Shown: positions 3,002-35,834, counted from the first letter of the stretch. The stretch: DNA of 38,912 nucleotides from Geobacter sp. (GCA_018262735.1 JADFDR010000003.1:1-38912); one strand, 5' to 3'. The notes: generated from the sequence alone by a model not told the origin. Numbers and translations: made by a program.

Positions 3002-3111
3002 AGAGCCTCTGGTCAATCCCGCTTTATCAATGCGAGTTTCTTTTCCACCGACGGAAAACAGCAGCACCGGTTTGCAACAATGCTTGAAGAATAAAATGGA
3101 TCCGAGGTTCC
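3002..3111 (+). repeat. Dispersed ~111 bp intergenic element, copy A
   Basis: AGAGCCTCTGGTCAATCCCGC...TTTTCCACCGACGGAAAAC...AAAATGGATCCGAGGTTCC; aligns with copies B-F. Confidence 0.85.
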
Positions 3112-3233
3112 TTCCATTGCTCGCATGCATTCTTGCGCGAACGCAGCTTCTTCAAGATGCGTGTCGCCTGCCGGAGCAACAACGCGACGATCTCCGACAA
3201 TCCTGCGCTCGAAGAAACATCGGAAAAACAAAG

Positions 3234-5516
3234 GTGCGAGCATTACTCTTTTTTGTGTTGGCTTCTTTGAGCGCACTGGGTTGCGCTTCCAAAACGACCA
3301 TCCCTCTCTATGCACCGCTCGCTCCCGCGCCCTTGCGTTCCGCGCGCATGCCCGACGAAGCCGACTTTGCCGCGCGCGATCTGCTCTCCGTCGCACTGCT
3401 GGAAGATCGTACGCGTGCCGCAGAGGCACTGGCAAAATTGCGCGAAACGACCCTCCAAAGCACAAACCCGGAAGACAACACAAAATTCGGTATACCCCTC
3501 GTAGCGTATGCACAAAATCTCGTCGATTCGATGCAAGAAAATCCGCGCGCCTATCGAAATGCATCGCGCACTCTGTTGAAACAAAAAAAATTACCCAAGT
3601 CTCTTCGCACGCGTCTCGAGTATGAAGTCGAAGATGATCCCATGCTGCTTAGCAAGGCGCGATTGCGCGACGATCATCAAGCTTCTTTCGGGCAAGTTTT
3701 CAACATGATCGCCGTACCGGCGGGACGCAGCATGATGTCGGCCAGCACACCCATCGTGGGTTTTGTGCGCTCCTTCATCGAGTGGAGCGCAAGCCGGCAT
3801 CTCACCGACGACTTCTCGATCTACGAACGTCAGGCTCTGCACTACTGGGAAGAAGAATTGCGTCGCGAGCCTGATTCGGAAGACGCTCCCGAGCTTACGC
3901 GAAAAGTCGAAATTGCAAACACAAAATTGCGTAATACGCGACGCGACCAAGAACTTCGCAAAGCACGACGCGCGCTCCGCCAAGGCGATCCACGGCTCGC
4001 CTTGGCATTTTCGGAATCGGCATTGCGCAACACTCCGGAAGATTCCAAAGCGCGACGGCTCGGCGAAAAAGCATTGCAGCAAATCGAAACGCAAGACGCT
4101 GCACGCGCGCGAAGTCTGGAAGCACCCCAAAATCTGACCTTGTCGGATCCCACCGAACTGCAACTCGCAGTCGCGCTGCTGGGTTCGGCCTCGGACACCG
4201 ATGTTCGCATCGCGCAAGTGCTCACCGACGATCCCAAAGGCCCATGGGCGGACGAAGCGCGATTTGCTCTCGCGATGCGCAAAATGGAACAACACGAGGA
4301 TGTTTCGAGCTGGAAAATTTTGCAGGAAGCGAAGAAACGCCGACACCGGCATGAAAACATGACTCTCCACGCCAAGACGCTGCTTCACGATCCCGCGCAA
4401 AACCCTCTTGCCATGTTTCAATCAACACGAAAAAGTGACGGATGGTTTCGAACGCGCTGGATTCTCTTTGGTCCGCTCGCGCGCGGCGCACGTGATCGCG
4501 ATTTGCCGCGCACTCTCGAATGGATACTCGACGCGCCTTATTTCATCGATGTCCTCGTCGGCATGCCCGAACGCATCGTGCGTTATCCCTGGCTTTCGCC
4601 CTGGCCGTTTGGACGCGCGCCTTCCTATTTCGCAAATCAGTATCTCGCCCGTTACTCCGACGGAAAAGCAATCGAGGACGTCGAAGAATGGCTTGAGGAC
4701 TATGAAAAACAACGCGGCAACTGGATCGGCGCACATGAAATGGCAAGTCGCCATACACCTGAAGGTGTAGAACCGTCCAAGCAACTGCTGCGGCTTGAGA
4801 AAAAAGCCGCCGAACAAGCCCTTGCCTCCGCAACCCAACAAACGCGCCTCGAAGTACGCATTCCGATGCTGCAAGAAATCGTACGTCGCTATCCAAAAAC
4901 CGAAGCAAGCCGCAAAGCAGGATTGCAGGTCCGCGCCGAAGTTCTCGAGCTCGCACCGCAAGCCATCCGCGTTTCGCGCGGCTTCCTCGAAGAAAACCCC
5001 GAACTCGCAGGCCCCAACGGTCTTGGTCTTCGCCCCGAACTTCTCGACGGGAATCCCGACAATGGCGAGTTGCATCCCCGCGGCGTCACCTTCGAAGGGG
5101 GTAACACTCTTGCGGTTCACTATTTGAACGAACGAGGCAAAAAGAAAGAAGCGCCTGTAACCGTTCGTCAGCAAATTTCTGCCGAACGACTTGCAGAGAT
5201 CGTGGCGCGTCTCGAAGAACGATCCCTCGCACTGACTCTGCTCGATCGCGATTACGAGCATCTTCCCGATGCACAGCGCGATCTCTTCTTTGAGCGTGCA
5301 CGCCTTGGTGTTGCGGAAGAAAAAGCTCCCCGGCATGCGGCGCGCTCGACTTTTGCCTTTCTCGGAATGCGCGAAAAATATGGCCTCGTGCGCGGGCGCG
5401 AATCGATCCTGCCGATTGAACTCGTCTTGCAAAGCTCGGCGAGCGACTTGAGCCTCGGCGCATTCCCTCGCATCAAAGAGCCAAAGAAGACTCCCGACTC
5501 CATTTTCTTTGAATAA
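3234..5516 (+). CDS. Large putative lipoprotein (~760 aa), helical-repeat-like, unknown function
   Basis: GTG start gives VRALLFFVLASLSALGCASK signal and lipobox; the longer ORF start at 2982 reads through repeat copy A. Confidence 0.7.
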   Translation: MRALLFFVLASLSALGCASKTTIPLYAPLAPAPLRSARMPDEADFAARDLLSVALLEDRTRAAEALAKLRETTLQSTNPEDNTKFGIPLVAYAQNLVDSMQENPRAYRNASRTLLKQKKLPKSLRTRLEYEVEDDPMLLSKARLRDDHQASFGQVFNMIAVPAGRSMMSASTPIVGFVRSFIEWSASRHLTDDFSIYERQALHYWEEELRREPDSEDAPELTRKVEIANTKLRNTRRDQELRKARRALRQGDPRLALAFSESALRNTPEDSKARRLGEKALQQIETQDAARARSLEAPQNLTLSDPTELQLAVALLGSASDTDVRIAQVLTDDPKGPWADEARFALAMRKMEQHEDVSSWKILQEAKKRRHRHENMTLHAKTLLHDPAQNPLAMFQSTRKSDGWFRTRWILFGPLARGARDRDLPRTLEWILDAPYFIDVLVGMPERIVRYPWLSPWPFGRAPSYFANQYLARYSDGKAIEDVEEWLEDYEKQRGNWIGAHEMASRHTPEGVEPSKQLLRLEKKAAEQALASATQQTRLEVRIPMLQEIVRRYPKTEASRKAGLQVRAEVLELAPQAIRVSRGFLEENPELAGPNGLGLRPELLDGNPDNGELHPRGVTFEGGNTLAVHYLNERGKKKEAPVTVRQQISAERLAEIVARLEERSLALTLLDRDYEHLPDAQRDLFFERARLGVAEEKAPRHAARSTFAFLGMREKYGLVRGRESILPIELVLQSSASDLSLGAFPRIKEPKKTPDSIFFE

Positions 5517-5731
5517 CAAATATTTGAGTCAATCCATTGCGTCGCGGTGCGTCATGCAACGCGCAGCGAAATGCAAGCCGATTCCGAAAAAGGAAGATCC
5601 TGGCCCACAAAAAAGTCAACACCGGGATGGCTTCACCCGATATGCTGCCCAAACCCAAAAATCGTGTTTCAGGTGCGCAGACAGTTGGGCAGGATTTTTC
5701 TGTCCCGTCGAGCTGTGTACTTCACAACTGA

Positions 5732-5777
5732 ACCCATCCCGTTTTTCCTCGGATCGCGCAGCTTCGCTCGGATGGGT
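5732..5777 (+). promoter_or_regulatory. 5' UTR hairpin upstream of the outer-membrane protein gene
   Basis: ACCCATCC ... GGATGGGT inverted repeat about 40 nt upstream of ATG 5820. Confidence 0.3.
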
Positions 5778-5819
5778 CCTAAAGAAAGAAACCTTTTTCA
5801 TTCCTTTGGAGGGCAATCC

Positions 5820-6878
5820 ATGTTCAATTCACTTTCTTTTCGATTCGTGTTTTTCGGAATTGCGGTAGCCGCAATGTTGCTTCACGCAACGCCGGCGAAC
5901 GCCGTAGCAACGACGCAAATAAGTGTTACTGGCACTGCCGTAAAAGAAACCACTCTGCAACTTCTCGATGCGAACAACCAAACCGTCCAGGAGGACGAGG
6001 ACAGCAATCACGCCGTCGGTCTTTGGTGGTGGCGGAACATTCCTTCGGGAAGCTACACGCTGCTGATTCAACAACCCGGCAAGGCCGATATCCGCGAGAC
6101 GGTCAAAATCGCCGATGGAAAAACAACGACGATCAGCGTCGACAGCGCAGCGCGCACGGTATCCATCACCGGCGAGCGCGAGCCGGATGCCATCAACACC
6201 CTCGACGACTCGCGATTTGCGGTAGCCCTCCTCGGCGGAGTAAAGCGAACGCCATACGATGCACAGGTGCAATCCAAAATGTGGGGCATCGATGAAGAGG
6301 AGAGCTTAAACGATACGATTGGAATGCTCGGCATCGAAGGACGTTACTACCTGCCAAACTTCGAAGTGTTGCAAGCGTGTCGCGCGCGACTTTTCCTTGC
6401 AGCGATGTACCTGGAATATCTCGGCGGAGGACAAACCAACCGCTTCATCAATGCTCATCCCGGACCCAGCAAGGATACCGGCATGAGCCTCGACGAACAG
6501 CGATCTTTGCGTCTGGCGCTTGGCTCGCAGTTCCTACTCACGCAGCAAGTCATGCTTGCAACACTCGTCGGTGTCCATGCCACCCGCGTCAAGGCACGCA
6601 TGCTCAGCGACGAGAGCGGTGGCGGTGGCCCGCGAAACAGCTTCAGCAAATCCGAAACGGTCTGGGGGCCTTACTTCGCGGTGGATCTCATCTTTCCGCT
6701 CTTGCTGCAACAGCTTTTCCATGTGCCAAATCTCGATCTCTTCGTACGTGCAGAAGCGATGCACATGCGCGACGTCACGGCGAGCGGGAAATCTCCATTC
6801 ACCGGCGCAATTTATCATGGCGAGGCCGAGGGTGGGACCCAGTATGGCGGCGCGATTGGAATCATGAAGCGTTTCTAG
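5820..6878 (+). CDS. Putative outer-membrane beta-barrel protein with N-terminal PEGA/carboxypeptidase-regulatory-like segment
   Basis: Signal peptide MFNSLSFRFVFFGIAVAAMLLHATPANA; aromatic, alternating C-terminal segment ending in F; GGAGGG Shine-Dalgarno before ATG 5820. Confidence 0.65.
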   Translation: MFNSLSFRFVFFGIAVAAMLLHATPANAVATTQISVTGTAVKETTLQLLDANNQTVQEDEDSNHAVGLWWWRNIPSGSYTLLIQQPGKADIRETVKIADGKTTTISVDSAARTVSITGEREPDAINTLDDSRFAVALLGGVKRTPYDAQVQSKMWGIDEEESLNDTIGMLGIEGRYYLPNFEVLQACRARLFLAAMYLEYLGGGQTNRFINAHPGPSKDTGMSLDEQRSLRLALGSQFLLTQQVMLATLVGVHATRVKARMLSDESGGGGPRNSFSKSETVWGPYFAVDLIFPLLLQQLFHVPNLDLFVRAEAMHMRDVTASGKSPFTGAIYHGEAEGGTQYGGAIGIMKRF

Positions 6879-6892
6879 ATGCAACTTCCAGG

Positions 6893-6938
6893 GAGGCATT
6901 TGCACGAGATCCCGCTGCAAATGCCTCCCTTTTTTTAT
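6893..6938 (+). terminator. Rho-independent terminator
   Basis: GGGAGGCATTTGCA-cgagatcccgc-TGCAAATGCCTCCC followed by TTTTTTT. Confidence 0.92.
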
Positions 6939-6958
6939 GCAACACAAAAAAGAGATTC

Positions 6959-9900
6959 ATGATGAAGTCGCTTCCGCGTGTCGCGAAACGATTTCGAAGA
7001 AATTCCGGAGAGAGAAAAATGCGCAACTACATCCTGCCGCTTCTTTGGCTTCTGGCTTTCACCTTTCTTCCGAACGGAATTTTCGTCGGAAATGTCTTCG
7101 CCGACGACGATGTGACCGTCGACATGAAGCAATCCGAGATTCCGAAAGACAACAGCGATCTCGAAGCCATCCAAAATTTTGCGCAACAGTTACAGTCACA
7201 AAAATGTGTCTGCCCAAAAATGGACTGCGATGCAGCGCATCGCACTCTGCAAAAACTGGCCGATCTCCAGGGCTACCTCGAAGGAATGCTTGCTTCGCTT
7301 CGCGATGCGAACGACGATCATATGGCGCATTTCAAGGCACTCGCGGAACAAGGCAAGCTCACCAACGAACAACTCGGTCGAACCATCCTCGCGCTCGGCG
7401 TGCAGGAATTTCTGCACAACATGGGTAGTGCGTTGCTCGACATTGCGAGTATCACGAGTTTCTTCAACGAAATTGCGGAAGACCCCAGCAAACTCGCAAG
7501 CAAGAAACCTCTCGAAATCATCGAAAACCTCGACAAATTCTATGAAGCCGTAAAAGACTACGAGAGCGCCGTCACCAATTTGAGTAGCAGTCTCACGGGT
7601 CAAAAGATCGAGGGACCTGTCGGCAACTTGACTCCAGACGTGCTCGGCATCGGCAAAGATGCTCTCAACGATCACAAGAGCACGATCTCCGACGCTATTT
7701 CCGTTTTGAAGGATGTCCACGAGAAAGGCGGCGACGTGCGCGAGGCCTTCAAAAAACCGGGCGGCCCCGCATCCGCCATCGGGCAAATTGCGGGTCGATA
7801 TTTGAAAGCTTACTCCGCCAAACAAATGGAAGAGCGCATGCAATATCTCAAAGATCTCGAAGGCGATCTCGCGGCGTCGGATCTTTCTCAGGCGCAGGCT
7901 TTTCGAGAAATGCAGAAGGTGCAAACGCGCCGCTTCATGGCGGAAGACACGCTCGAGGCTGTACGCGCCGCACTGAGTTCATTTGCGGCCTGTGCAGCGA
8001 AAGCCGGTTGCGGACCATACACTTTGGTGCGTCCACAACTTCCGAATTTCAACACGGAAGTTCCAGGAGCCAACGGCAAAGTCAAAAAGAACTGGGGCAC
8101 CGCATTGCGCTACTACAATGAAGCCTTGGCTGCGTTGCGCTCGGATTTGTCCTTGCCTGCGATCGAAGAGCGCGTGCCCTGCAATCCGACACCAATCGGC
8201 GACAAAATCAAAATCGGATTTGATACTCCGGTGTGGTGCAATTTCGGGGGCGGCTCGACGCCCGTGCCTCCCTTCGGAGGCGACGACGGCAGCACGCCGC
8301 CTCCGACGAGTGGCCCAGGTGATGGCATCGGCATTCCGACCGGAGGCGGAGGAACACCCACCACGCCCGGCGGCACACCTCAAATTCCAGGCGGCCCGCC
8401 GACACATCCTGGTGGCACGGGCACAACGACGCGTCCACCCGGAACAACCTCCAAGCCAAACGACGACGATCCGCGCGACGGCGATCCCACGACCCCGCCG
8501 CCGGTGATCGTGAAAGCAACCAAAACTGCACTCGCAACCGGCGCGCAGGCCGTCGCCGTGCAAGGCGCATTACTCAAAATTGAGACACCCGCACCAGCGC
8601 TACCTCTTGCCGGCAATACAGCGCCCGATACGGGATTCAACGAGTCTCCGCAACAAGGCGTAACCGGACCGGACGGTCAAGCAAAACTCGGGTCTGGTAC
8701 ACCGAACGGAGTCACTCCGGTTGTGGTTGGCGTCGATCTCACTCCACAATCGAGCATGATGGTGACGCTTGGAGGAAACAACCCGCGCGCTGCACTGCAT
8801 CCAGATTTGCATCAATATTGGAAGCGTTCGTTCTTGCTCAATAGCCAAACCGTGGCGGTTTTGTTCTATCCGCAAGAGATGGGCCAAACCGTGGCGCGTC
8901 TTATTCGCGAGTCGGCAAACGTCACTCACTCGGAAATCAATTACTGTCGCGAGAAAGAAGGCACACCGAACGATCCATACTTGCTATCGAAAGGAAGCTG
9001 GAAACAAAACTATGACGATCAATGGGGAATCAAGCGTGTCGGCTTTACTACCGATGCGGATTCCGCATGGAATTCCGTCGGAGAAAAACCTGCGTCGGTT
9101 GTGGTGGCCGTGATTGATTCGGGCCTCGACTGGAATCACAAAGACTTCGCCTGGGAAAATATCTGGCAAAACCCCGGCGAAATTCCCGACAACGGCATCG
9201 ACGACGATGGCAACGGTTATGTCGACGATGCCATCGGCTGGGACTTCTTCCATGGATCCAACAAACCCTGGGATTACGACGGACACGGTACTTTCGTGAC
9301 AGGCATCATTGCAGCAACACAAAATAATGTTACCGGTATCGCAGGCATCAATCCGCACGCAAAGATCATGGTGCTCAAAGCTCTGAACAGCTTTGGCCAC
9401 ACACGCGCCTCGTTCATCGCCGAGGCCGTGCTCTATGCAGCGAATCATGGAGCACAAGTAATCAACTTGTCCGTCGGTGGAAAAAATAGAACTCGCGCCG
9501 AAGAACAGGCAATCTCCTATGCACTCTCGAAAGGCATCGTCGTCGTGGTTGCGGCCGGCAACGAAGGCACGGACGTCGCCGATTTCGGTCCTGCGTCACT
9601 CGAAGGCGTTATTACCGTGACCGCCACGGATCCCAACGACAAGCGCGCAATGTTTGCGAATTGGGGTTCCGGCATCGACATCGCTGCACCGGGCGTGGAC
9701 ATTCTTTCGCTGCGTGGCCGTCGCACGGACTTGATGCGCGACCTACCCGGCACCGACTACCAACCCGACTCGGCTTTCGTCGGTAGCGACAAACGTTACT
9801 TCCGGGCTTCCGGCACTTCGTTTGCCGCGCCGATCGTTGCGGGTACGGCATCGCTTCTGATCTCGAAAAATCCCAATCTCCGTGCGGAGCAAGTGAAACG

Positions 9901-10309
9901 AATCTTACTCCATTCCGCGAAAGACATTGAGACACCAGGCATCGATCAACTCACGGGGTATGGCCTGCTCGACGCCAAAGCGGCGCTCGCTGCGGATCCA
10001 GCCTTCTTCTTAACTGCGACAATTCATAGTGTCATAGCGGCACAACGCGACGGAGCGACGGTCGTCGAGGTAAGTGGTTCGCTGCTTGGCAGCTCACTCG
10101 CGCGTGGCTGGCTCGAACTCGGTGCAGGCGAAACGCCGACCACATGGAAGAAAATCGGCGGAGAAATTCGCGGCAACATCGAGAACGGCGTACTCGGCGC
10201 CATCCCTGCCAGCGAGCTCTCGGGATCGAAAGTCTGGACGATTCGCGCGATCGGGGAGGACAAGAACGGGAAGCGCCGCGAAGCTTGGTTCCGACTCAAC
10301 TTGAGCTAA
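6959..10309 (+). CDS. Exported S8 (subtilisin-like) serine protease with long helical N-terminal region and Pro/Gly-rich linker
   Basis: Asp (VVAVIDSGLDWNH), His (DYDGHGTFVTGIIA) and Ser (ASGTSFAAPIVAGTA) motifs; signal peptide; start at 6959 or 7019, not 6377. Confidence 0.9.
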   Translation: MMKSLPRVAKRFRRNSGERKMRNYILPLLWLLAFTFLPNGIFVGNVFADDDVTVDMKQSEIPKDNSDLEAIQNFAQQLQSQKCVCPKMDCDAAHRTLQKLADLQGYLEGMLASLRDANDDHMAHFKALAEQGKLTNEQLGRTILALGVQEFLHNMGSALLDIASITSFFNEIAEDPSKLASKKPLEIIENLDKFYEAVKDYESAVTNLSSSLTGQKIEGPVGNLTPDVLGIGKDALNDHKSTISDAISVLKDVHEKGGDVREAFKKPGGPASAIGQIAGRYLKAYSAKQMEERMQYLKDLEGDLAASDLSQAQAFREMQKVQTRRFMAEDTLEAVRAALSSFAACAAKAGCGPYTLVRPQLPNFNTEVPGANGKVKKNWGTALRYYNEALAALRSDLSLPAIEERVPCNPTPIGDKIKIGFDTPVWCNFGGGSTPVPPFGGDDGSTPPPTSGPGDGIGIPTGGGGTPTTPGGTPQIPGGPPTHPGGTGTTTRPPGTTSKPNDDDPRDGDPTTPPPVIVKATKTALATGAQAVAVQGALLKIETPAPALPLAGNTAPDTGFNESPQQGVTGPDGQAKLGSGTPNGVTPVVVGVDLTPQSSMMVTLGGNNPRAALHPDLHQYWKRSFLLNSQTVAVLFYPQEMGQTVARLIRESANVTHSEINYCREKEGTPNDPYLLSKGSWKQNYDDQWGIKRVGFTTDADSAWNSVGEKPASVVVAVIDSGLDWNHKDFAWENIWQNPGEIPDNGIDDDGNGYVDDAIGWDFFHGSNKPWDYDGHGTFVTGIIAATQNNVTGIAGINPHAKIMVLKALNSFGHTRASFIAEAVLYAANHGAQVINLSVGGKNRTRAEEQAISYALSKGIVVVVAAGNEGTDVADFGPASLEGVITVTATDPNDKRAMFANWGSGIDIAAPGVDILSLRGRRTDLMRDLPGTDYQPDSAFVGSDKRYFRASGTSFAAPIVAGTASLLISKNPNLRAEQVKRILLHSAKDIETPGIDQLTGYGLLDAKAALAADPAFFLTATIHSVIAAQRDGATVVEVSGSLLGSSLARGWLELGAGETPTTWKKIGGEIRGNIENGVLGAIPASELSGSKVWTIRAIGEDKNGKRREAWFRLNLS

Positions 10310-10410
10310 GAAGTCTCCGACTCATGAATGCGCATTGATTTGTCACCGACGGAAAACATCCGTATAACTTGCAAAAAAGTCCGTTCATGGAATGGCTCGG
10401 AAGCTTCTTG
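10310..10410 (+). repeat. Dispersed intergenic element, copy B (partial; left-arm deletion)
   Basis: GAAGTCTCCGACTCATGAATGCGCATTGATTTGTCACCGACGGAAAACATC...CATGGAATGG; begins immediately after the S8 protease stop codon. Confidence 0.75.
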
Positions 10411-10462
10411 ACGGCCCGATCTTCGATACGCGACATAAAAAAGTGTCGAACGATTTTGCATA

Positions 10463-10573
10463 GGAAGACTCTGATTCATTCCACTTTATGAATGTTGACT
10501 GATTTCCCACCGATGGAAAGCCTCAACCCTGGTTTGTGAGAGTGCTCAAAAAATGGAATTGATCAGAGGTTCC
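10463..10573 (+). repeat. Dispersed intergenic element, copy C
   Basis: GGAAGACTCTGATTCATTCCACTTTATGAATG...CCCACCGATGGAAAG...CTCAAAAAATGGAATTGATCAGAGGTTCC. Confidence 0.85.
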
Positions 10574-10625
10574 ATCGAGCCAAAGTGGGTTCACAAAACG
10601 CAACTTCCGTCTTGGCAAGGAAGGA

Positions 10626-11903
10626 TTATTCCTGGCGTGAGTACGCTTCGGCAAGAATTTCGATGGGGTGCAAAGTGCGTATCGAAAGCCCACGTTGCGC
10701 AAAACCGGCACGAAACTGCAAGAGGCAGCCCGGATTCCCCGTTACGACGACATCGGGATTTGCCCTTTCGATCGACGCAAGTTTGCGTCGCCAAACGGCA
10801 TCGGCCATTTCGGGATGTGTAAGATTATAAATTCCCGCAGCACCACAACAGGCTGCAGCGTCTTCTTGCTCGACGAGTTGCAAACCGGGAATTTGCCGAA
10901 GGAGCGCACGTGGCGCATCGACAACGCGTTGGCCGTGAAACAAGTGACATGAATCGTCGTAGCAAACGCGAAGCCTCATTTCGCGGCTTGGTTTTTCGAT
11001 ACCCTGTGCGTACAAAAACTCCGAAATATCGCGTATCGAATGCGCAAGCCAACTCCAGGACTCTCGCTGCCTCGGCGATGCCGTCGAACCCTCTCCGTCG
11101 TCGCAAAGCCAATTTTCACAATCGCGCAGCGCCGCCCCGCACCCCGCCGAATCGACGATGACATACTCCACTTGGGCATCGCGAAACGCGCGCACGTTTT
11201 GCTCCAAAAGCTCGCGCGCAGTTTCAAGATCTCCCGAATGCGCGTGCAACGCTCCACAACACACTTGGGTGTCTGGCACAATCACTTCGAAACCGTTCTG
11301 CGCCAACACATGAAGACTCGCACGCTGCACCGAACCAAAAAATTCAGGCAAAACGCAGCCCACGAAATAACCCACCCGCGCTCGCCGCTTTCCGCGAGCA
11401 ACAAACGAAGTGGCAAGAGGAGCACGCAAACGGGGCGGTGCGATCGGCGGTAGAAAATCGATCCGTCGTTGCCAACGCGACGGAAGCAACAGACGCAACG
11501 CAGCAAGAACGCGAAAGCGTTGCAGTCCGTGCAAAACATTCACGACAAAACGCAAGCGACGACGATTCGGAACGATCTTCTGCAACACAAAAATTTCGAT
11601 TCTCTTTGCAATGCCCTGATGAAGGCCACGCCCTCTTGCTTCCGCGCGCATCGTCTCAAGCAGATCTTCAAAGCGCACTCCCGACGGACATGCCGTTTCG
11701 CAAGCACGACAGCCCAAACAAAGATCCATCGCCTCCAAAACAAGCTCGGAAAATTCAATGCGATTCTCCACGACGCCGCGCATCAAGTAAATGCGTCCGC
11801 GTGGCGATGCGATTTCATTTCCCGTTTCTCGATAAGTTGGACACGTTGGCAGGCAAAGGCCGCAGTGAACACAATCAAGTGTTAACTGCGAAATTTTTTT
11901 CAT
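10626..11903 (-). CDS. glcF: Glycolate oxidase iron-sulfur subunit
   Basis: Two 4Fe-4S motifs (CVHCGLCLPTCPTY, CLGCRACETACPSG) and CCG motifs (CCGALHAHSG, CCGAAGIYNL); ATG at 11903. Confidence 0.9.
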   Translation of the reverse strand: MKKISQLTLDCVHCGLCLPTCPTYRETGNEIASPRGRIYLMRGVVENRIEFSELVLEAMDLCLGCRACETACPSGVRFEDLLETMRAEARGRGLHQGIAKRIEIFVLQKIVPNRRRLRFVVNVLHGLQRFRVLAALRLLLPSRWQRRIDFLPPIAPPRLRAPLATSFVARGKRRARVGYFVGCVLPEFFGSVQRASLHVLAQNGFEVIVPDTQVCCGALHAHSGDLETARELLEQNVRAFRDAQVEYVIVDSAGCGAALRDCENWLCDDGEGSTASPRQRESWSWLAHSIRDISEFLYAQGIEKPSREMRLRVCYDDSCHLFHGQRVVDAPRALLRQIPGLQLVEQEDAAACCGAAGIYNLTHPEMADAVWRRKLASIERANPDVVVTGNPGCLLQFRAGFAQRGLSIRTLHPIEILAEAYSRQE

Positions 11904-11962
11904 TCGCGCAGGATCGCTTCCATGACACGCAAAACCGTCGCAAGAGTTTCCGCCCGCTCGCA

Positions 11963-13279: not shown

Positions 13280-13378
13280 TGCTTCCCCGCTTTGTACTAC
13301 GTACTTTCGCGAACACTCTCCGCCAAGGAACGGTGCGCATCCTCTTGTCGCGCGCATCTTCCTGCCTAACGCATCTGC

Positions 13379-14809: not shown

Positions 14810-14831
14810 CGGTTCACCCAAATCCAAAACT

Positions 14832-14945
14832 GAAGGAGCTTCTGATCAATTCCATTTTTCGAGTTTTTCACAAACCATGACTGATGTTTCCCGTCGGTGA
14901 AAAACCAACTCGCATGGACAAAGCGAGATGGATCAGAAGCTCCTC
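14832..14945 (-). repeat. Dispersed intergenic element, copy D
   Basis: Reverse complement GAGGAGCTTCTGATCCATCTCGCTTTGTCCATGCGAG...TTTTTCACCGACGGGAAACATCA...CTCGAAAAATGGAATTGATCAGAAGCTCCTTC; 14 bp perfect terminal inverted repeat AGGAGCTTCTGATC. Confidence 0.88.
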
Positions 14946-15128
14946 AAATCAAAACGCAAAATCGGTTCTACTCAAAAGCCAAGAGGCCAAACGCATTGAA
15001 AGGGATTCTCTCTCAAAACGATCGGCCAATTTGTAGGAAAAACCTCGAAGAAGTGTCACGATACGCGCGCAAAGCGTGCTTCTCTCCTGCGCCGCACGCG
15101 ACTTCACGCTCGGAGGGAACCTTGCGAA

Positions 15129-17547: not shown

Positions 17548-17624
17548 TGGTGGGCCCTCCAGGGATTGAACCTGGGACTGTCCGGTTATGAGCCGGATGC
17601 TCTGACCGACTGAGCTAAGGGCCC
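17548..17624 (-). tRNA. tRNA with CAT anticodon, most likely tRNA-Ile2 (CAU, lysidine-modified), alternatively elongator tRNA-Met; CCA encoded
   Basis: Reverse complement GGGCCCTTAGCTCAGTCGGTCAGAGCATCCGGCTCATAACCGGACAGTCCCAGGTTCAATCCCTGGAGGGCCCACCA folds as a full cloverleaf. Confidence 0.95.
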
Positions 17625-19217: not shown

Positions 19218-19311
19218 TCACGCGACGCTCGGCATTCCATTTTGACACAGCGATGTGACTCTTCGGTACGCTGCGCTTTCACAATTCGAAATTTGGAATG
19301 TGTTGCATCTC

Positions 19312-19422
19312 AGAAATTTCGAATCCATTCCGTTTTTCGAGCCTTTTCGCAAACCAAATCTGATGTTTTCCGTCGGTGAAAAATCAACCCGCATTCATCA
19401 AGCGAAAGCAATCAGAACCTCC
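19312..19422 (-). repeat. Dispersed intergenic element, copy E
   Basis: Reverse complement GGGAGGTTCTGATTGCTTTCGCTTGATGAATGCGGGTTGATTTTTCACCGACGGAAAACATCAGATTTGGTTTGCGAAAAGGCTCGAAAAACGGAATGGATTC. Confidence 0.85.
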
Positions 19423-19449
19423 CTCATCCATGCGAGCGGAGTCAACGCA

Positions 19450-23239: not shown

Positions 23240-23259
23240 ATCCGGCCAAGCCTCCGTGC

Positions 23260-23457: not shown

Positions 23458-23689
23458 CCTCGAACACTCCTTGCTTGAACGGCACAAAAAGCAAACCGAA
23501 GTTCAACCAACTCTTGCAAATCGACTCGGCTTGGAAAGCGATTTTTCCGGCGGCCCTGCACCGCGGGAGCCGCATGCTAGCGAAGCGATCTTCGACGATC
23601 AACTCGCATTGACCTCCGAACCAGGAACGTCTTGGAAGCCCAAATCCAAAATCAAAACGGGATGCGATCACCAATTTGGTCCGCTCGCT

Positions 23690-25862: not shown

Positions 25863-26500
25863 TTTTGAATCCACCCTGCAAACGCATCAAGCACGCGCTT
25901 GCCTGCAAGTTGACTTTTCTCAGGATGAAACTGCACGGCAAACACATTTTCGTGTGCCACGGCCGACGTAAATTCGCCGTCGTAATCCGTGCGACCGACG
26001 ACAAGACGCGCATCCATAGGCATCGCGCGATACGAATGCACGAAATAAAAAAAATCGCGCTGCGGCATTTTCGCAAGTAGCGGGTGCGCACCATCGAAAC
26101 AGACTTCGTTCCAACCAATATGCGGCACACGCAAAGGCGCACCCGACGCGCCAAAAGACGGAAAGCGTTCGACGCGGCCCTTAAAAATTCCAAGCCCACG
26201 ACTTCGCCCGTGCTCATCGCTCTCTTCGAAAAGCATTTGCAAACCGAGACAAAAACCAAGATACGGTTTGCCAATCCGGATCGCTTCGCACAACGCCTCG
26301 TCGAAGTGACGTGCACGCAAACTCTTCACCGCATCGGCAAAGGCACCGACGCCAGGCAATACGATCGCATCCGCCGCACGCAGCGTCTCCGGATCGCTCG
26401 TAACTTCGGTTTCCATCCCCGAGCGCAACAACGCCTTCGCAACGCTGCGAAGGTTCCCTGCGCCATAATCGACCAAGGCGATGTGAAGCTTACGATTCAT
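25856..26500 (-). CDS. hisH: Imidazole glycerol phosphate synthase subunit HisH (glutamine amidotransferase)
   Basis: ALVDYGAGNLRSVAKAL, PYLGFCLGLQMLFEESDE, AVQFHPEKSQ. Confidence 0.97.
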   Translation of the reverse strand: MNRKLHIALVDYGAGNLRSVAKALLRSGMETEVTSDPETLRAADAIVLPGVGAFADAVKSLRARHFDEALCEAIRIGKPYLGFCLGLQMLFEESDEHGRSRGLGIFKGRVERFPSFGASGAPLRVPHIGWNEVCFDGAHPLLAKMPQRDFFYFVHSYRAMPMDARLVVGRTDYDGEFTSAVAHENVFAVQFHPEKSQLAGKRVLDAFAGWIQKC

Positions 26501-26524
26501 GGAATCTCGCCCGAACTTTCTTGC

Positions 26525-27121
26525 TCAAAGAGTGCCTTTTACCGACGGAACACCGTGCACACGCGGATCTTTCTCGAGCGCCATCTTGAGTGCGCGCGCT
26601 GTCGCTTTGAAGATCGCTTCCGCTACATGGTGTGGATTTTTTCCGTAGCGAAGTTCGATGTGCAGATCGAGACCTGCGCTTTGCGCAAGCGCACCAAAGA
26701 ATTCTTCCACGAGTGAAATATCGAAGTCTCCCGCACGCAAATTTGTGACTTCGACGTTATACACAAAAAAGGGTCGATTCGAAACATCGACGACAGACTC
26801 GGCTTTCGCTTCACCCATCGGAACGACAAAAAAACCGAAACGGCGTATGCCTTCGGCGGTGCCAAGCGCTTGGCGAATGGCTTGACCAAGACAAATTCCG
26901 ACATCCTCCACGGCATGGTGATCGTCCACTTTCAAATCACCTTTTGCACGCAACGTCAAATCGAGGAGTGCGTGTTTGGCGAACGACTCCAACATGTGAT
27001 TGAAAAAACCAATTCCGGTTTCGACATCGTACTTTCCGGAGCCATCAAGATCGAGTTCGAGTCGAATTTCGGTTTCACGCGTCTTGCGCTCGATTACACT
27101 TTTCCGTGTTTGTTGTTGCAT
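26525..27121 (-). CDS. hisB: Imidazoleglycerol-phosphate dehydratase
   Basis: ETGIGFFNHMLESFAKHALLDL, DDHHAVEDVGICLGQA, NPHHVAEAIFKATARAL. Confidence 0.97.
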   Translation of the reverse strand: MQQQTRKSVIERKTRETEIRLELDLDGSGKYDVETGIGFFNHMLESFAKHALLDLTLRAKGDLKVDDHHAVEDVGICLGQAIRQALGTAEGIRRFGFFVVPMGEAKAESVVDVSNRPFFVYNVEVTNLRAGDFDISLVEEFFGALAQSAGLDLHIELRYGKNPHHVAEAIFKATARALKMALEKDPRVHGVPSVKGTL

Positions 27122-27126
27122 CCTAT

Positions 27127-28503
27127 TTACATCTCCTCTTCCGAGTCGGCATCGCGCGCGGCATCTCGTTCGCGTCGCGCACGCCGAATTTTTTGCAAAC
27201 GCAACTCGACGGCCACGCCATGCCCAGCCAGTCCTTCCAGCTCGGCAAGACGAATCACATCCGTACCCAGCTCACGCAACTTCGACGGTTCAAAACGTAT
27301 GATACTCATCCGTTTCAAGAAATCTTCGACGCCCAGCGGCGAAAAGAAACGCGCCGTCCCGCCCGTCGGTAGCACATGACTTGGTCCCGCCAAATAATCA
27401 CCGACCGCTTCGGGTGTATAGTGCCCTAGGAAGAGTGCTCCCGCGTTGGTGATTTTCTTCGAAATCAAATCTGCATCCTCGATCGCAAGCACCAAATGCT
27501 CGGGCGCATAACGATTCGATATTGCAATCGACTCTTCGAGATTCTTGGTCAAGATCACTGCACCATGCTGGGTCAGCGACTCGCGTGCAATTTTCGCACG
27601 CTTGAGGCAAGCGAGCTGCTTTTCGAGCTGCTCTTGCACGCGCGCTGCAAGTGCTTTGACATGCGTCACCAAAATCGAGCTTGCCATTTCATCGTGTTCG
27701 GCTTGTGAAAGCAAATCCGCAGCAACCCAAGCGGGCGTTGCCGACTTGTCGGCAAGAATCAAAATTTCACTCGGCCCCGCTTCAAGGTCGATGCCCACCT
27801 CACCGAAAACCAAACGCTTCGCCGTTGCAACATACACATTTCCGGGACCAACGATCTTATCGACGCGCGGTACGGTCTGTGTGCCGTGGGCAAGCGCCGC
27901 AATAGCTTGTGCGCCACCCACCTTGAACACGCGATGCACGCCGGCCACGCGAGCTGCCATCAAAACTTCCGGTCGAATGCGTCCGTCGCGATCGGGTGGC
28001 GTCACCATGACGATTTCGGGGACTTCGACCACCGAGGCAGGCACTGCATTCATGATCACGCTCGACGGATAGGAAGCCTTTCCGCCAGGCACATAGATGC
28101 CGACGCGCTCAAGTGGGCGCAATCGCTGCCCCATGAACGCACCGCCTTCTTCCCGCATCTCCCAGCTCGACGGAATGCGTTTTCGGTGAAAGTCACGCAC
28201 ACGCATGGCCGCCTTGCCGATGGCTGCGCGATTGGCCGGATCGACGGAAGCCACCGCCTCATCCCACTCATTTTTGGTTACTTCGAAACTTTTAAGTGTT
28301 ACACCATCATACTTTTCGGTGAGTGCGATCAACTCCGAATCTCCGTGCTCGCGCACGCGTTCGATGATCTTGCGTACCGTTTTCTCGACGGTGTCGTCGT
28401 CCGTGAAGCGACGTGCCACGAGTTTCTTGAACGCGCTTTCAAACTTCGGATCGTCGGTTTTTAAGACGGACAACAGCTCTTTCGATCCCGCTCGACTCGC
28501 CAT
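27127..28503 (-). CDS. hisD: Histidinol dehydrogenase
   Basis: PLERVGIYVPGGKASYPSSVIMNAVPA, DKIVGPGNVYVATAKRLVFGEVGIDLEAGPSEI, GPSHVLPTGGTARFFSPLGVEDFLKR. Confidence 0.98.
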   Translation of the reverse strand: MASRAGSKELLSVLKTDDPKFESAFKKLVARRFTDDDTVEKTVRKIIERVREHGDSELIALTEKYDGVTLKSFEVTKNEWDEAVASVDPANRAAIGKAAMRVRDFHRKRIPSSWEMREEGGAFMGQRLRPLERVGIYVPGGKASYPSSVIMNAVPASVVEVPEIVMVTPPDRDGRIRPEVLMAARVAGVHRVFKVGGAQAIAALAHGTQTVPRVDKIVGPGNVYVATAKRLVFGEVGIDLEAGPSEILILADKSATPAWVAADLLSQAEHDEMASSILVTHVKALAARVQEQLEKQLACLKRAKIARESLTQHGAVILTKNLEESIAISNRYAPEHLVLAIEDADLISKKITNAGALFLGHYTPEAVGDYLAGPSHVLPTGGTARFFSPLGVEDFLKRMSIIRFEPSKLRELGTDVIRLAELEGLAGHGVAVELRLQKIRRARRERDAARDADSEEEM

Positions 28504-28505
28504 CG

Positions 28506-29765
28506 TTATCCCTCCCGGCGGATGTCCGCCCCCAAACTCTTCAACTTTTCTTCGATGCGTTCATAGCCGCGATCGATGTGATACACGCGATGCACCGTCG
28601 TCTCACCCTCAGCAGCAAGGGCTGCCACCAAAAGTCCCGCCGATGCACGTAAATCGGTCGCCATCACCGGCGCACCCATCAACTTCGCACCACCGCGCAA
28701 ATGCGCCGAACGACCGTCGAGCGTGATGTCGGCTCCGAGCCGCTGCAACTCGGGCACATGCATGAAACGATTCTCAAAAACTTTTTCTGTCACCACGCTC
28801 GAACCTTCGGCGACAAGCAAAAGCGCCATGATTTGCGCCTGCATGTCCGTTGCAAATCCCGGATACGGCGCTGTCGTCACATGCGTTCCGTGCAAACCAT
28901 TCGGCACACGCGCGCGAATCGAATCGCCTTGCACGGTGATCTCAACTCCGATCTCGCGCAATTTTTCGAGCGTTGCCCCCATGGTTTCGGCGGAAGCACC
29001 GTGGATCCAAACATCTCCGTGAGTCACTGCAGCAGCACAAAGAAGTGTTCCCGCTTCGATACGATCACCTGCAACACAATGCTCGACGCCGTGCAGACGT
29101 TCGACTCCACGAATCACGATCCGCGCCGTACCTTCCCCTTCAATGTCCGCGCCCATCTTGCGCAAGACCTCGACCAACTCGACCACTTCGGGTTCACGCG
29201 CCGCGTTTTCGAGCACGGTCTCGCCCTTTGCAAGCGTCGCCGCCATCATCACGTTCTGCGTCCCATTCACCGTCGTAATATCGAACGAAAAATTGACACC
29301 GACGAGCGGAGCACCGCTCACTTCCACGTAGCCGTGATCGAGATGCGTTTTTCCTCCAAGTGCTTCAATCCCTTTCAGATGCTGATCGATAGGGCGCACG
29401 CCGATGGCACAACCGCCGGGCTCCGACACGCGCGCTTGGCCAAAGCGTGTTACGAGCGGACCAAGCACCATGAACGAGGCACGCATTTTGCGCACGAGAT
29501 CATACGGCGCTTCATAACGGCAAACCGTCGAAGCGTTAATTCGAACCGCGTGCGAATCTTGAGGATCCCAACCGGCCTTCGCACCGAGTGCCTCGAAAAT
29601 CGCAAGCAAACCATCGACGTCGCGCACGCGCGGAACATTGCGCAGCACGACTTCATCGTCGGTGAGAAGCGCCGCCGCCATCAACGCAAGCGTCGAGTTT
29701 TTCGACCCGGAAAGAGTCACTTCGCCGGTCAAGCGGCGACCTCCGCGGACAACGATACGATCCAT
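28506..29765 (-). CDS. murA: UDP-N-acetylglucosamine 1-carboxyvinyltransferase
   Basis: GGRRLTGEVTLSGSKNSTLALMAAALLTDDEVVLRNVPRVRDV; typical MurA C-terminus. Confidence 0.98.
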   Translation of the reverse strand: MDRIVVRGGRRLTGEVTLSGSKNSTLALMAAALLTDDEVVLRNVPRVRDVDGLLAIFEALGAKAGWDPQDSHAVRINASTVCRYEAPYDLVRKMRASFMVLGPLVTRFGQARVSEPGGCAIGVRPIDQHLKGIEALGGKTHLDHGYVEVSGAPLVGVNFSFDITTVNGTQNVMMAATLAKGETVLENAAREPEVVELVEVLRKMGADIEGEGTARIVIRGVERLHGVEHCVAGDRIEAGTLLCAAAVTHGDVWIHGASAETMGATLEKLREIGVEITVQGDSIRARVPNGLHGTHVTTAPYPGFATDMQAQIMALLLVAEGSSVVTEKVFENRFMHVPELQRLGADITLDGRSAHLRGGAKLMGAPVMATDLRASAGLLVAALAAEGETTVHRVYHIDRGYERIEEKLKSLGADIRREG

Positions 29766-29853
29766 GTTTCACTACTTTCCGAATGAGGTGATTTTCGTTT
29801 TCGAGGTAATCGCAGCGCTTCTCGTCAAATCCCCTTCGGGAAGCGCATCTAGC

Positions 29854-30891
29854 CTACACCGACTCCGGATTCCGTGCTGCCACAACTCGAGCGCGCCCCG
29901 CTAAGTCTTTCAAAATTCTTACATTCACAAAACCAGTTTCCTGCAAAAACTCTTGCATGCTTCGAGCCTGTTCGGGCGCAAACTCGAGCGCAATTTCACC
30001 TCCCGCCACCAAGTATTTCGGAGCCTCGACTGCAATTTTTTGCAACGCCTCGAATCCCGTCGTACCCGCAAAGAGAGCTTTGCGCGGCTCATGTGCAAGC
30101 TCCGGTGCGAGAGTCGCCGCTTCGCTTTCCGCCAAATACGGTGGATTGGAAACAATCAAATCAAAAACCTCGCCCGAGAGCGCCGAGAACCAATCGCTTT
30201 CGAGGAAACGCATGCGCTCGCTCAAGCCAAGTGTTTGCGCATTGGTACGTGCAACTTCGAGTGCGGCAAGCGAGATATCCGTCGCTGTAATCTGGACACG
30301 GGGTCGCTCGCTTGCAATCGCGAGTGCAACCGCGCCGCTCCCCGTGCCAAGATCGAGCACGCGATACGGTCGATCGCGATCGCGCAAAAAATCGAGCGCC
30401 TCCATCACGAGTGTTTCCGTATCGGGCCGTGGCGTGAGCACCGCCGGCGTGACGCGCAACGAAAGCGACCAAAATTCTTTTTGCCCCATGAGCAAGGAAA
30501 CCGGCACGCGTTCGCGCGCGCGCCGCTGCACGAGTTCGCGAAATCGTGCGCGCTCGGCTTCCATCACCGGTTTTTCGAAATCAAGATACACACGAAGACG
30601 ATCACACTGAAGTGCGTATGCCAAAAGACACTCTGCGTCGAGACGCGGACTTTCGATTCCACAGTCTTGAAAATACTGCGTCGTCCAGCGCAAAAGCTCG
30701 AGCACCGTCCAGTTTTTCGAACTAGGCTGCGAACCGGAATCCGATCGAGAAGATTGACTTGACACTTTATTGAGTCGGGAGGTCGGCTCGTGTCGTGTGG
30801 AAGAATGGTCCCACGTTCTCGTTGGAGTAGATCGCAGCGTTTTGGGTTGCTCGTCCGACGGAGGATCCGATGGTTTCTCGGAATCGCTCAC
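29854..30891 (-). CDS. prmC: Release factor glutamine methyltransferase with Ser/Pro-rich N-terminal extension
   Basis: [34 protein letters not shown] start overlaps the prfA stop (GTGA). Confidence 0.95.
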
Positions 30892-31964
30892 AGATTTGCC
30901 TTCTTGCGTGCCTCGGCTGCGAAATGGCTCGCAACTCCGCCCAAAAGTTCGTCGAGATCTCCGGCCATGCAATTTTCAAGTGAATGCAACGTAACGCCAG
31001 CGCGGTGATCCGTGACACGAGATTGTGGAAAGTTGTAGGTGCGAATTCGCTCGCTGCGATCGCCGGTCCCCACTTGTGAGCGCCGCTCACTCGCACGCTC
31101 TGCATCGGCGCGTGCCTGTTCGGCTTCGAGAAGGCGTGAGCGCAAGACGCGCAGCGCCTTGGCCTTGTTCTTGTGCTGTGATTTTTCGTCTTGGCACTGC
31201 ACTTCGACGCCCGTCGGTAGATGTTTGATCCGCACGGCCGAATCTGTGGTATTGACGCTCTGCCCGCCTGGCCCCGAGGCGCGAAACACATCAATGCGTA
31301 GGTCTTCGGGCTTGATTTCAATATCCACTTCTTCGGCTTCCGGCAAAACCGCCACCGTCACCGTCGAAGTATGGATGCGCCCCTGCGCCTCGGTCGCGGG
31401 AACGCGCTGTACGCGGTGCACACCACGCTCGTACTTCATCTGACCAAACACGCCGCTGCCTTTGATCGAAAGAATCGCTTCTTTGGTCCCGCCGGCGTCG
31501 GCGTCGCTCAAAGAGAGAAGCTCTGTGCGCCAACCTTTGCGTTCGGCGTAGCGCGTGTACATGCGCAAAAGTTCGCCCGCGAAAAGCGCTGCTTCTTCAC
31601 CGCCCGCACCGGCGCGAATTTCAAGAATGACATCGCGCGCGTCCGTCGGATCTTTGGGAATCAGGAGCAGTTCGATTTGCACTTCGAGCGCTTCGCACTC
31701 GGTCGTAAGACGCTGCATCTCGGCCTTGGCGAGCTCACGAAGCTCGGCATCCGATTCGCCAAGCATGGCTTTCGCGCCCTCGAGTTCGTGAATCAAAACC
31801 CGATACCGCTGCGTCGCATCGAGAATTGGGCGCAATTCGGCGAGATTTCTCCCAATTTTCGCAAAGTCTGCCGAACCACCGGCAAGCGAAGGATCGGCAA
31901 GTTGCTCTTCGAGCGCGCGCGCACGCGCTTCAATTTCGGCAAGGCGTTCGAGCAGAATCGACAT
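30888..31964 (-). CDS. prfA: Peptide chain release factor 1
   Basis: [51 protein letters not shown] (GGQ motif). Confidence 0.98.
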
Positions 31965-32044
31965 CGGTCATCTCACTCCGGCGCAGGTCCAGAGTCGGAA
32001 AATCTCGAGGCAGGAAGAGAACGTCGAGGCAGAGGTCGCCGCGC

Positions 32045-32245
32045 TTACTTCTTCGTGTAGCGGCGCTTGAACTTCTCCACCTTACCGGCCGTATCAATCA
32101 GCTTTTGTTTGCCGGTGAAAAACGGATGGCAAGAGGAACAAATTTCGACGCGAATTTCCGGCAGTGTGGAACGAGTCTCCCACTGCTGACCGCATGCACA
32201 GTGAACCTGCACGGTTTGATATTGAGGATGAATTTCAGGCTTCAT
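32045..32245 (-). CDS. rpmE: 50S ribosomal protein L31
   Basis: [63 protein letters not shown]; CxC...CxxC zinc-binding type. Confidence 0.97.
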
Positions 32246-32315
32246 AATTGGGGCCTTCTAATAGCCTACTCGCTCCGGTTCGACAAGCTCGAAATCCGGA
32301 CGGCGGAGCAAACGG

Positions 32316-33764
32316 TTAAGAGTTCATCGACTTCAAAAAGTCTTCGTTGTTTTCTGTAGCCTTGATCTTCTCGAGCAAAAATTCCATGGAGTCGACCGGG
32401 TTGAGCGGCGCAAGCACCTTGCGCAGGATGTACATGCGGCTGAGCGTATTTTCACCAAGAAGCAGATCTTCTCGGCGCGTCGCCGATTTGCTGATGTCGA
32501 TCGCCGGATAAGTACGGCGCTCGGCAAGCTTGCGGTCGAGCACGATTTCCGAATTGCCCGTACCTTTGAACTCTTCGAAGATCACTTCGTCCATTCGCGA
32601 TCCGGTATCAATCAGCGCCGTACCCACGATCGTAAGGCTGCCGCCCTCTTCCACGTTTCGCGCGGCACCAAAGAAGCGCTTCGGTTTGTGGAGTGCGTTC
32701 GAATCGACGCCGCCCGAAAGAATTTTTCCTGAGTGCGGCACCACCGTGTTGTAGGCGCGCGCAAGTCGCGTGATCGAGTCGAGCAAGATCACGACATCGC
32801 GCTTGTGCTCGACGAGCCGCTTCGCTTTTTCGATCACCATCTCCGCCACTTGAACGTGTCGGGCGGCCGGCTCATCGAACGTCGACGAAATCACTTCCGC
32901 CTTCACGGTGCGCAGCATATCCGTCACTTCTTCGGGTCGCTCGTCGATCAACAACACGATCAAGAACACTTCCGGATGCGCAGTGCTGATCGCATTCGCA
33001 ATGTCTTTCAAGAGCATGGTCTTGCCGGCCTTCGGCGGCGACGGAATCAGCGCACGCTGGCCTTTGCCGATCGGCGCCACCAAGTCGATGATCCGCGTCG
33101 TGAGTCCCGCACCCTTGTAAGCCAGGTTAAACTTTTCCTGCGGATAGAGCGGCGTGAGATTGTCGAAGAAAATTTTACGTCGGCTTGCAAGCGGTGACTC
33201 AAAATTGATTGAACCGACTTTCAACAACGCAAAATAACGCTCGCCTTCTTTCGGAGAACGAATCTGTCCCTGAACGGTGTCACCCGTACGTAAACCAAAA
33301 CGTCGAATCTGCGACGGAGAAACATAAACATCATCGGGGCCGGGCAAATAATTTTGATCCGGCGCGCGCAAGAATCCAAATCCATCCGGCAAACATTCGA
33401 GCACGCCGTCGGCATAAACACGTTCGTCACCTTCGCTCTTGGCTTTGAGCACATTGAAAATCAAATCTTGCTTGCGCATCCCCGTTGCGCCTTCAATGTT
33501 GAAGCGCTCGGCGAGTTCCGTCAGTTCTTCCATCGACTTGTTTTTGAGATCGCGGACATACACGCGCTTGCTCGGATCGGATTCCTCTTCGGTATCGATT
33601 TCTTCGTCGGAAATGTCATACATCTCCGGCCCACGATCCTGGCGGCCCATATTGCCACCGCGTCCACCACCACTACGGCGACGCCCGCCATTGCGACGAT
33701 TGCCTCGATTCATCGAGTTGTCGTTCGAGTCGCTTCCTCTTCTGGGGCTCAAATTTTTCCTCAC
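32316..33764 (-). CDS. rho: Transcription termination factor Rho
   Basis: [23 protein letters not shown] (Walker A), [34 protein letters not shown]; Arg/Gly/Asn-rich N-terminus. Confidence 0.98.
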
Positions 33765-34131
33765 TTCCTACATTTGGACTTTGTGTCATTACACATGAAA
33801 AAGATTTTTCAAAAATTGAATCGGCAGAGATTGGCCGTGCCGCGCGTTCGATTCGCTACAGAACGAAATACGGGGATGAGTAAGTCGGGAATACCCTTTT
33901 TGCTCGGACCAACGGTCCTTTTCATTGACCTTAAAAATGCTGCGCGAAATAAAATCTCGAATACGCCGGGACCGGCTACGAACAAATTCCTCGGAAAAAC
34001 TTTTTCTCCTGCAGCGCGCTCAATGCCTTACGGATCACGATGACCGACGAAGGAGCAAATTCGCGATGGGAGTCGTGCCCGAGAAAATCAAACCGGCACG
34101 AGTCCTAACCTATGCGGAGTCGAGCATCGTG

Positions 34132-34803
34132 TCAAGTCTCGTTCGCAGCTGCGATGAAATGCACAAGACGTCCTGTGCCTGCACCATCGCGACGATAGGA
34201 ATAAAATCGTGTCGGATTGCACGCCGTGCATGCGTCGGAAATTCGACCGATGCATTGCCGATCAAGTCCAAAACGCGAGAGTTCTTGCACTGCAAGAAGT
34301 CCCAAATCAAGCTGCACATGCTCGGAACGAGATGCATCACGCATATGCACAGCAGCTTGCCAATCCGGAAACCGCTTCCGCATCGCATCGAGCACCGGTG
34401 TATCGACCTCGTAGCAACACGGACCAATGTGTGGACCGATCACCGCACGCAACTTGTTTGCGTCCACTCCAAGATCCGAAAATGCATGCAGGGTTTGCTC
34501 CATCACACCGGCGGCAAGTCCACGCCATCCCGCATGCGCCGCAGCCACCACTTTCCCCGACACATCTGCAAACAACACAGGAACACAATCTGCTGTCACA
34601 ATACCAATACAAACACCAGGAAGTGTTGAAAGGATCGCGTCCGCTTCTCCCGCATTTTGTGCAGCTCGGTCGATGATGGCGACGCGCGTTCCGTGCACTT
34701 GCCGAGGGCGTAACAACCCGGACACTTCCTTCGCGGCAATCGTCCCAAAGCCATGCAAAACATGGACTTCCGTCAAAAGATCATGTGTCAAAAAACCTTT
34801 CAC
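34132..34803 (-). CDS. pgeF: Laccase-domain polyphenol oxidase / purine nucleoside phosphorylase family (YfiH/PgeF)
   Basis: ADAILSTLPGVCIGIVTADCVPVLFAD, AAHAGWRGLAAGV, IGPHIGPCCYEV. Confidence 0.93.
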   Translation of the reverse strand: MKGFLTHDLLTEVHVLHGFGTIAAKEVSGLLRPRQVHGTRVAIIDRAAQNAGEADAILSTLPGVCIGIVTADCVPVLFADVSGKVVAAAHAGWRGLAAGVMEQTLHAFSDLGVDANKLRAVIGPHIGPCCYEVDTPVLDAMRKRFPDWQAAVHMRDASRSEHVQLDLGLLAVQELSRFGLDRQCIGRISDACTACNPTRFYSYRRDGAGTGRLVHFIAAANET

Positions 34804-35723
34804 GGCTGCTCTGCTCCATTCAACGTATCGAGCAACGTTTGAAAATCTTGGGGAACAGAAGCTTCAAACCTTTTTCGCTCGCCTGTACGTGGATGCACGA
34901 AACCCAGCACTTTGGCGTGCAATGCGGGCCGTGCGAGCAGTGCTCGTTTCGCATTGGTACGGCCATACACCGTATCTCCGACGAGCGGCAAGCCTGCCGA
35001 TGCAAGATGCACGCGAATTTGATGCGTACGACCCGTTTGCGGATACACCTCGAGCAACGTAATTCCACTTTGCGGAAAACGTCGCTTCACCTTCCAGCGC
35101 GTGTGCGCTGCACGGCCTGCACGCGTGCGCACCGACATTTTTTTGCGATCACGGAGATGTCGTCCGATCGGTCGATCGACTTCGCCCGTATCTTCTTTGG
35201 GTACACCACGCACGAGTGCCCAGTACATGCGATCGATCGAATGCAAGCGAAATTGCTCTGACAAAAATTGGTGTACATCGTCGCTTTTTGCCACGACAAG
35301 TACGCCGGATGTACCTCGATCAAGGCGATGCACGATCCCGGGCCGTTGCCCGCCACCGACAGCGGATAGGCTTTCTCCACAATGATGCAAAAGCGCGTTC
35401 ACGAGCGTACCCTGCGCATGACCCGGTGCAGGATGCACCACGATTCCCGCCGGCTTGTCGAGAACGATTAAATCCTCATCTTCATATAAGACTTGCAACG
35501 GAGTCGCTTCGGCTTTCACAGTCGAAGGTTCTTCTGCGACACGCTCCACTTGTACAATATCTCCGGAACACACGCGCTTGCTCACGCGCGCACGCTCACC
35601 GTTCAACAAAACTTGCCCGCTTTCGATCCAACGCTGCACCTGTGCACGCGGCGCCTGCAAAAACGATGCACATACGGCATCCAGACGCTGACCTTCTTCG
35701 TTTTGCGTAATCAAATGTTGCAT
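34800..35723 (-). CDS. rluD: RluA/RluD-family 23S rRNA pseudouridine synthase
   Basis: S4-like N-terminus, then RPGIVHRLDRGTSGVLVVAKSD and TGRTHQIRVHLASAGLPLVGDTVYG; ATG 35723 preferred over 35771, which reads into repeat copy F. Confidence 0.93.
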   Translation of the reverse strand: MQHLITQNEEGQRLDAVCASFLQAPRAQVQRWIESGQVLLNGERARVSKRVCSGDIVQVERVAEEPSTVKAEATPLQVLYEDEDLIVLDKPAGIVVHPAPGHAQGTLVNALLHHCGESLSAVGGGQRPGIVHRLDRGTSGVLVVAKSDDVHQFLSEQFRLHSIDRMYWALVRGVPKEDTGEVDRPIGRHLRDRKKMSVRTRAGRAAHTRWKVKRRFPQSGITLLEVYPQTGRTHQIRVHLASAGLPLVGDTVYGRTNAKRALLARPALHAKVLGFVHPRTGERKRFEASVPQDFQTLLDTLNGAEQP

Positions 35724-35834
35724 GAGGTTCCTCGGATTCATTCGCTTTCGAAATGCAACTTGATTTTTCACCGACGGAAAACATCAAACCTGGTTCGCGA
35801 AAATACTCGAAAAATGGAATGGACTAGAGGTTCC
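35724..35834 (+). repeat. Dispersed intergenic element, copy F
   Basis: GAGGTTCCTCGGATTCATTCGC...TTGATTTTTCACCGACGGAAAACATCAAACCTGGTTCGCGAAAATACTCGAAAAATGGAATGGACTAGAGGTTCC. Confidence 0.88.

Follow-up and report, generated by a model that had tools for sequence, protein, structure and literature searches.

A ~110-bp repeat dispersed through a Geobacter sp. assembly is very probably an IS5-type MITE

Results

A repeat family with the features of an IS5-type MITE

The 38,912-nucleotide stretch of Geobacter sp. DNA analysed here (the window) carries six copies of a repeat that is very probably an IS5-type MITE, a non-autonomous DNA transposon moved at YTAR targets by a transposase acting in trans. 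The repeat has terminal inverted repeats (TIRs) and a target-site duplication (TSD) of fixed length, is short and free of transposase sequence inside, and occurs in high copy number dispersed over many contigs, as is characteristic of MITEs. Its 4-bp YTAR duplication, together with ends that start with GG and resemble IS5-group TIRs, places it with the IS5 group. A first-pass annotation of the window had called the repeat MITE-like by its TIRs, which was right and is now backed by the 4-bp TSD, by tandem insertions that share a TSD and by the IS5-type ends. The same annotation could assign it to no nameable repeat family; this stands at the level of the family but not of the class, and the repeat is therefore a new family of an already known kind.

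All six previously listed copies are present where they had been placed, with ends that shifted by 0-3 bp after refinement; the refined ends are the positions immediately inside the TSD. Copy A (3002..3111, + strand; TIR scores 16/20 and 16/20) is preceded by a left target-site copy, GTAA (2998..3001), within which the gene upstream ends in the stop codon TAA (2999-3001). Similarly, copy B (10310..10407, +; 11/20 and 15/20), whose left half is degenerate, follows CTAA (10306..10309), which holds the stop codon of a subtilase gene ending at 10309. Copy C occupies 10464..10573 (+; 16/20 and 17/20), copy D (14835..14943, -; 17/20 and 17/20) is flanked by TGAA and TCAA, and copy F (35726..35834, +; 15/20 and 16/20) by ATGA and ATAA. 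Copy E (19313..19422, -) lies between convergent genes and features a perfect TSD, CTCA, on both sides (19309..19312 and 19423..19426). When the core TTTTTCACCGACGGAAAAC was searched with up to three mismatches, the window gave seven matches compared with 0.03 expected from shuffles, and five of the seven were element copies with 0-1 mismatch.

Copy F lies just upstream of a minus-strand gene for an RluA/RluD-family pseudouridine synthase, with two bases between the element and the ATG (35721-35723). In this region (35711-35736), the element end reads GAGGAACC toward the start codon, and could provide a candidate ribosome-binding site for the gene.

Copy number, ends and divergence across the assembly

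The assembly that was searched comprises 1.97 Mb in 233 contigs and is 74.6% complete. It holds at least 222 matches to the core TTTYCACCGACGGAAAACATC (up to three mismatches), well beyond the six or more copies in 39 kb reported earlier, as well as 154 matches to the TIR pattern, with zero matches for the reversed-pattern core control and zero for the TIR control across the whole assembly. By simple arithmetic, this corresponds to approximately one copy per 9 kb and, at ~110 bp each, to about 1.2% of the assembly. An HMM made from the copies gave 200 matches, 163 of them nearly full length, in ~427 kb of fetched sequence consisting of the regions around copies and the search loci. The copies have diverged, with a mean pairwise identity of 0.69 and an identity to the consensus of 0.80. 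Several copies are located very near contig ends (for example C50:4597 of 4652, C198:8825 of 8954 and C133:19598 of 19814); the repeats look like assembly breakers, and young, near-identical copies may be under-represented.

Both ends share an inverted-repeat consensus, YTAR|GGAGCCTCKGATCCATTCCG, of about 20-24 bp, so the inverted repeat noted in the first-pass annotation is real but longer than the ~19 bp proposed. Where the ends are well defined, copy lengths fall into two groups, 108-111 bp and 99-101 bp. Members of the ~100-bp class (such as L092:3071-3170 and L036:1475-1574) are missing about 10 bases from the stretch that leads from the core to the right TIR.

A 4-bp target-site duplication and tandem insertions

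Perfect 4-bp matches between the two flanks were found for 23 of 116 copies, compared with 4.1 expected (z = 11.1) and a maximum of 12 in 300 shuffles; no other duplication length from 2 to 10 exceeded z = 2.5. The preferred target is YTAR, which forms the flank consensus on both sides. Perfect duplications also include the non-consensus sequences TTTC, TCAA, CGAA and CTCA, the last being that of window copy E, which speaks against an outer part of the TIR simply being conserved. These exact 4-bp TSDs show that insertion took place. In addition, 10 of 25 neighbouring pairs lying less than 200 bp apart have exactly 4 bp between them; both orientations occur, and most of the spacers resemble the target (CTAG, CTAA, TTAA, TTCG and CGAA). 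This spacing is the one expected when a copy inserts into the target copy of another.

The probable transposase and competing origins of the repeat

A plasmid search with an IS5-like end located an element on pA81 (Achromobacter), CTAG|GGAACCTCTGAACAAG ... CTTGTTCAGACCTTCC|CTAG, around a gene annotated as an IS5 family transposase, whose product features the Pfam domains DDE_Tnp_1 and DUF772. The first 11 bases of the MITE, GGARCCTCKGA, agree with the end of this element, GGAACCTCTGA. The likeness to the IS5 group of the IS5 family (the pA81 element and IS5 of E. coli) therefore lies in this end tip, the YTAR 4-bp duplication and the inverted ends. Unlike the pA81 element, however, the MITE has an interior of its own without a transposase, and TIR identity between the two is limited to the first ~11-12 bases. 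The TSD motif of IS5 is YTAR (PMC10359306), and IS5-group elements are mostly tabulated with 4-bp direct repeats (PMC3281130). Neither an IS5-type transposase (PF01609, PF05598 or PF13586) nor an autonomous partner with the same TIRs was found in the 74.6%-complete, 233-contig assembly, from which PF13546 (DDE_5, IS701-type) and PF01797 (Y1_Tnp, RAYT) are also absent. No IS5-type, IS701-type or RAYT gene was thus detected, and the IS5-type identity of the driver is inferred. The element would now be inactive, but MAGs lose repeated IS copies, and perhaps young, identical MITEs at contig breaks, so neither the absence of the driver nor present inactivity is firm.

Mobilisation by a different DDE family that makes 4-bp duplications, such as IS701, is improbable. 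IS701 also generates duplications of exactly 4 bp (PMC2266710) and, with no transposase found in the assembly, the driver is unproven, but the IS701 end motif ---YACT-Y--YR (PMC2266710) does not fit GGAGCCTCKGA, DDE_5 is missing, and a genuine IS5 element shares the first 11 bases and the YTAR target. The first-pass annotation had also compared the repeat, by its hairpins, to REP/ERIC elements, and had implied a structured RNA that a covariation analysis should reveal; neither idea was supported. A REP/BIME-type palindrome mobilised by a RAYT would likewise be abundant, extragenic, palindromic and sometimes clustered, yet this origin is scarcely credible given the absence of Y1_Tnp, the long TIRs and 4-bp TSD, and a length of 110 bp compared with the 20-40 bp given for REPs in PMC3733652. 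Only slightly less far-fetched is a family of structured RNAs or intrinsic terminators spread by selection for function. The consensus does fold into a long hairpin, with copies folded one by one also exceeding their shuffles in stability (mean z -2.4), but such a fold follows from the TIR palindrome. Across 42 copies, the covariation score was 0.169 compared with 0.173 in shuffles and 83.2% of cells were paired compared with 83.5%, while RNAalifold kept three pairs, none with a compensatory change. The most strongly coupled columns by mutual information were mostly non-complementary, which is consistent with subfamilies. The element has no match in Rfam and no U-tract follows the stem; a terminator scan gave one match inside a copy (3063-3084) and 26 in total, fewer than the 33.3 in shuffles. 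Mutual information, RNAalifold, pair counts and Rfam give no support to a structured RNA, and the exact 4-bp TSDs show insertion as the origin. A repeat can be palindromic and fold stably without being a structured RNA. The sole described RNA of the window is a tRNA gene (17551-17624, - strand) found with Rfam, whose only matches in the window lie at 17.55-17.62 kb and consist of this tRNA and, on the opposite strand, a match below the threshold.

Gene context and insertion into stop codons

Genes were predicted with a codon-usage caller trained on long ORFs and are therefore approximate rather than a standard annotation. Of the 116 well-defined copies, only 2 share more than 50 bp with a predicted gene, in agreement with the earlier statement that all copies lie between genes. 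Among 101 classified gaps, 50 were convergent and 13 divergent. The stop codon of the neighbouring gene was located exactly in the TSD (the three bases adjoining the element) on 39 of 147 3'-facing sides, compared with 0 of 70 5'-facing sides. Because TAA or TAG is part of YTAR, the duplication preserves the stop codon. Where an in-frame TAR adjoins the element, the gene already ended at that codon, which means that the element inserted into a native stop codon. As a matter of logic rather than experiment, such an insertion leaves the gene intact through the duplication. Special targeting of stop codons is not needed to account for this pattern: 19 stop-codon insertions were observed and 18.7 were expected from random use of the YTAR sites in each gap, although this is a low-power test, conditioned on the used site, and most gaps hold few YTAR sites.

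Taken as an IS5-type MITE, the element would be cut out or copied by an IS5-group transposase acting in trans on the ~20-bp TIRs and would be inserted at YTAR-like 4-bp targets with duplication of the 4 bp. Hundreds of insertions would then pile up where they do little harm, namely convergent gaps, gene 3' ends and the inside of stop codons, where the duplication would restore the codon owing to the TAA or TAG held by YTAR. Purifying selection presumably lies behind the location bias. The repeat adds a dense, apparently lineage-specific family of IS5-type MITEs, and would represent a clean case in which the target choice of a transposon shapes its tolerated landing sites, with insertion into a stop codon made harmless by YTAR.

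An over-conserved internal 12-mer

The nearly invariant loop described in the first-pass annotation is genuine and corresponds to a conserved 12-mer, CACCGACGGAAA. Within 28 copies collected by their TIRs, this 12-mer reached a conservation of 0.94, whereas the best window elsewhere reached 0.85 (the difference has a bootstrap lower bound of +0.018), and it was more conserved than the TIRs. Since these copies were collected by TIRs, the conservation is not solely an artefact of the core search, although recognition by the full-length model was still required and some bias may remain. The over-conservation of CACCGACGGAAA is not explained by mobility alone and is the remaining oddity of the family.

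This raises the question of whether a MITE-derived repeat was co-opted by its host, for example in 3'-end processing or for protein binding, with selection acting on the core. The conservation of the 12-mer and the concentration of copies at gene 3' ends both favour this, but tolerated insertion explains the location (given the low-power comparison of observed and expected stop-codon insertions above) and transposition itself may instead require the core as a cis site. Overall, we consider co-option unlikely. There is a slim chance, specifically, that CACCGACGGAAA is a functional host-factor site which the MITE has carried to the 3' ends of hundreds of genes; if so, the lineage would possess a 3'-end or nucleoid-associated element of genome-wide reach.

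Distribution and comparison with known small repeats

A DNA search of 60 relatives did not detect the element in any of them, nor was it found in a genome of the same family but a different genus, and the core at up to one mismatch was absent from all 378 other genomes of the phylum that were searched. Genomes of the same order gave scattered single or double core matches at exactly three mismatches and single TIR matches at three mismatches, while scanning of sampled same-order loci identified no full-length match, only short pieces of core or TIR length. An exact 20-mer occurred once each in an Elusimicrobium contig and a Burkholderiales contig, where 23-29 bp were similar to the model; these matches were taken as chance. 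No exact 20-mer was found in viral contigs, and plasmid and phage records gave no match to the consensus. The family therefore appears to be lineage-specific within the genomes searched.

Several known bacterial repeats are comparable. RUP and BOX of Streptococcus pneumoniae (PMC3049150) are also small, bounded by TIRs and enriched between convergent genes, and they insert into one another like the copies described here; in 36 cases, a BOX copy provides the codon at which a neighbouring gene stops at its 3' end, without clear truncation (PMC3049150). However, RUP uses TA targets and has IS630-type ends, and the sequences of both are unrelated to the MITE. The Correia/NEMIS elements of Neisseria are similar in size (about 107-155 bp), with a 24-bp TIR, more than 100 copies and hairpin transcripts, but feature TA at their termini instead of a 4-bp YTAR-like duplication and are unrelated in sequence. 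QMITE2 (Coxiella) and Chunjie (Geobacter uraniireducens) are likewise lineage-specific bacterial MITEs found in intergenic or 3' regions, but are larger (~190 bp and ~235 bp, respectively) and have different sequences.

Two further small units with IS5-type ends were observed in other replicons. An unrelated viral contig (IMGVR_UViG_3300014095_000003; L141:1243-1399) carries CTAG followed by GGAGCCTCTGAACAACTC, with an inverted arm at 1381-1399, and judging from its sequence this is a different small MITE-like unit. A Xanthomonas perforans plasmid (CP077786.1), which gave six matches to the IS5-like end query, carries a 159-bp unit (L144:2001-2159), CTAG|GGAACCTCTGAACAACTC ... GAGTTGTTCAGAGCTGCC|CTAG, that looks like another IS5-type MITE.
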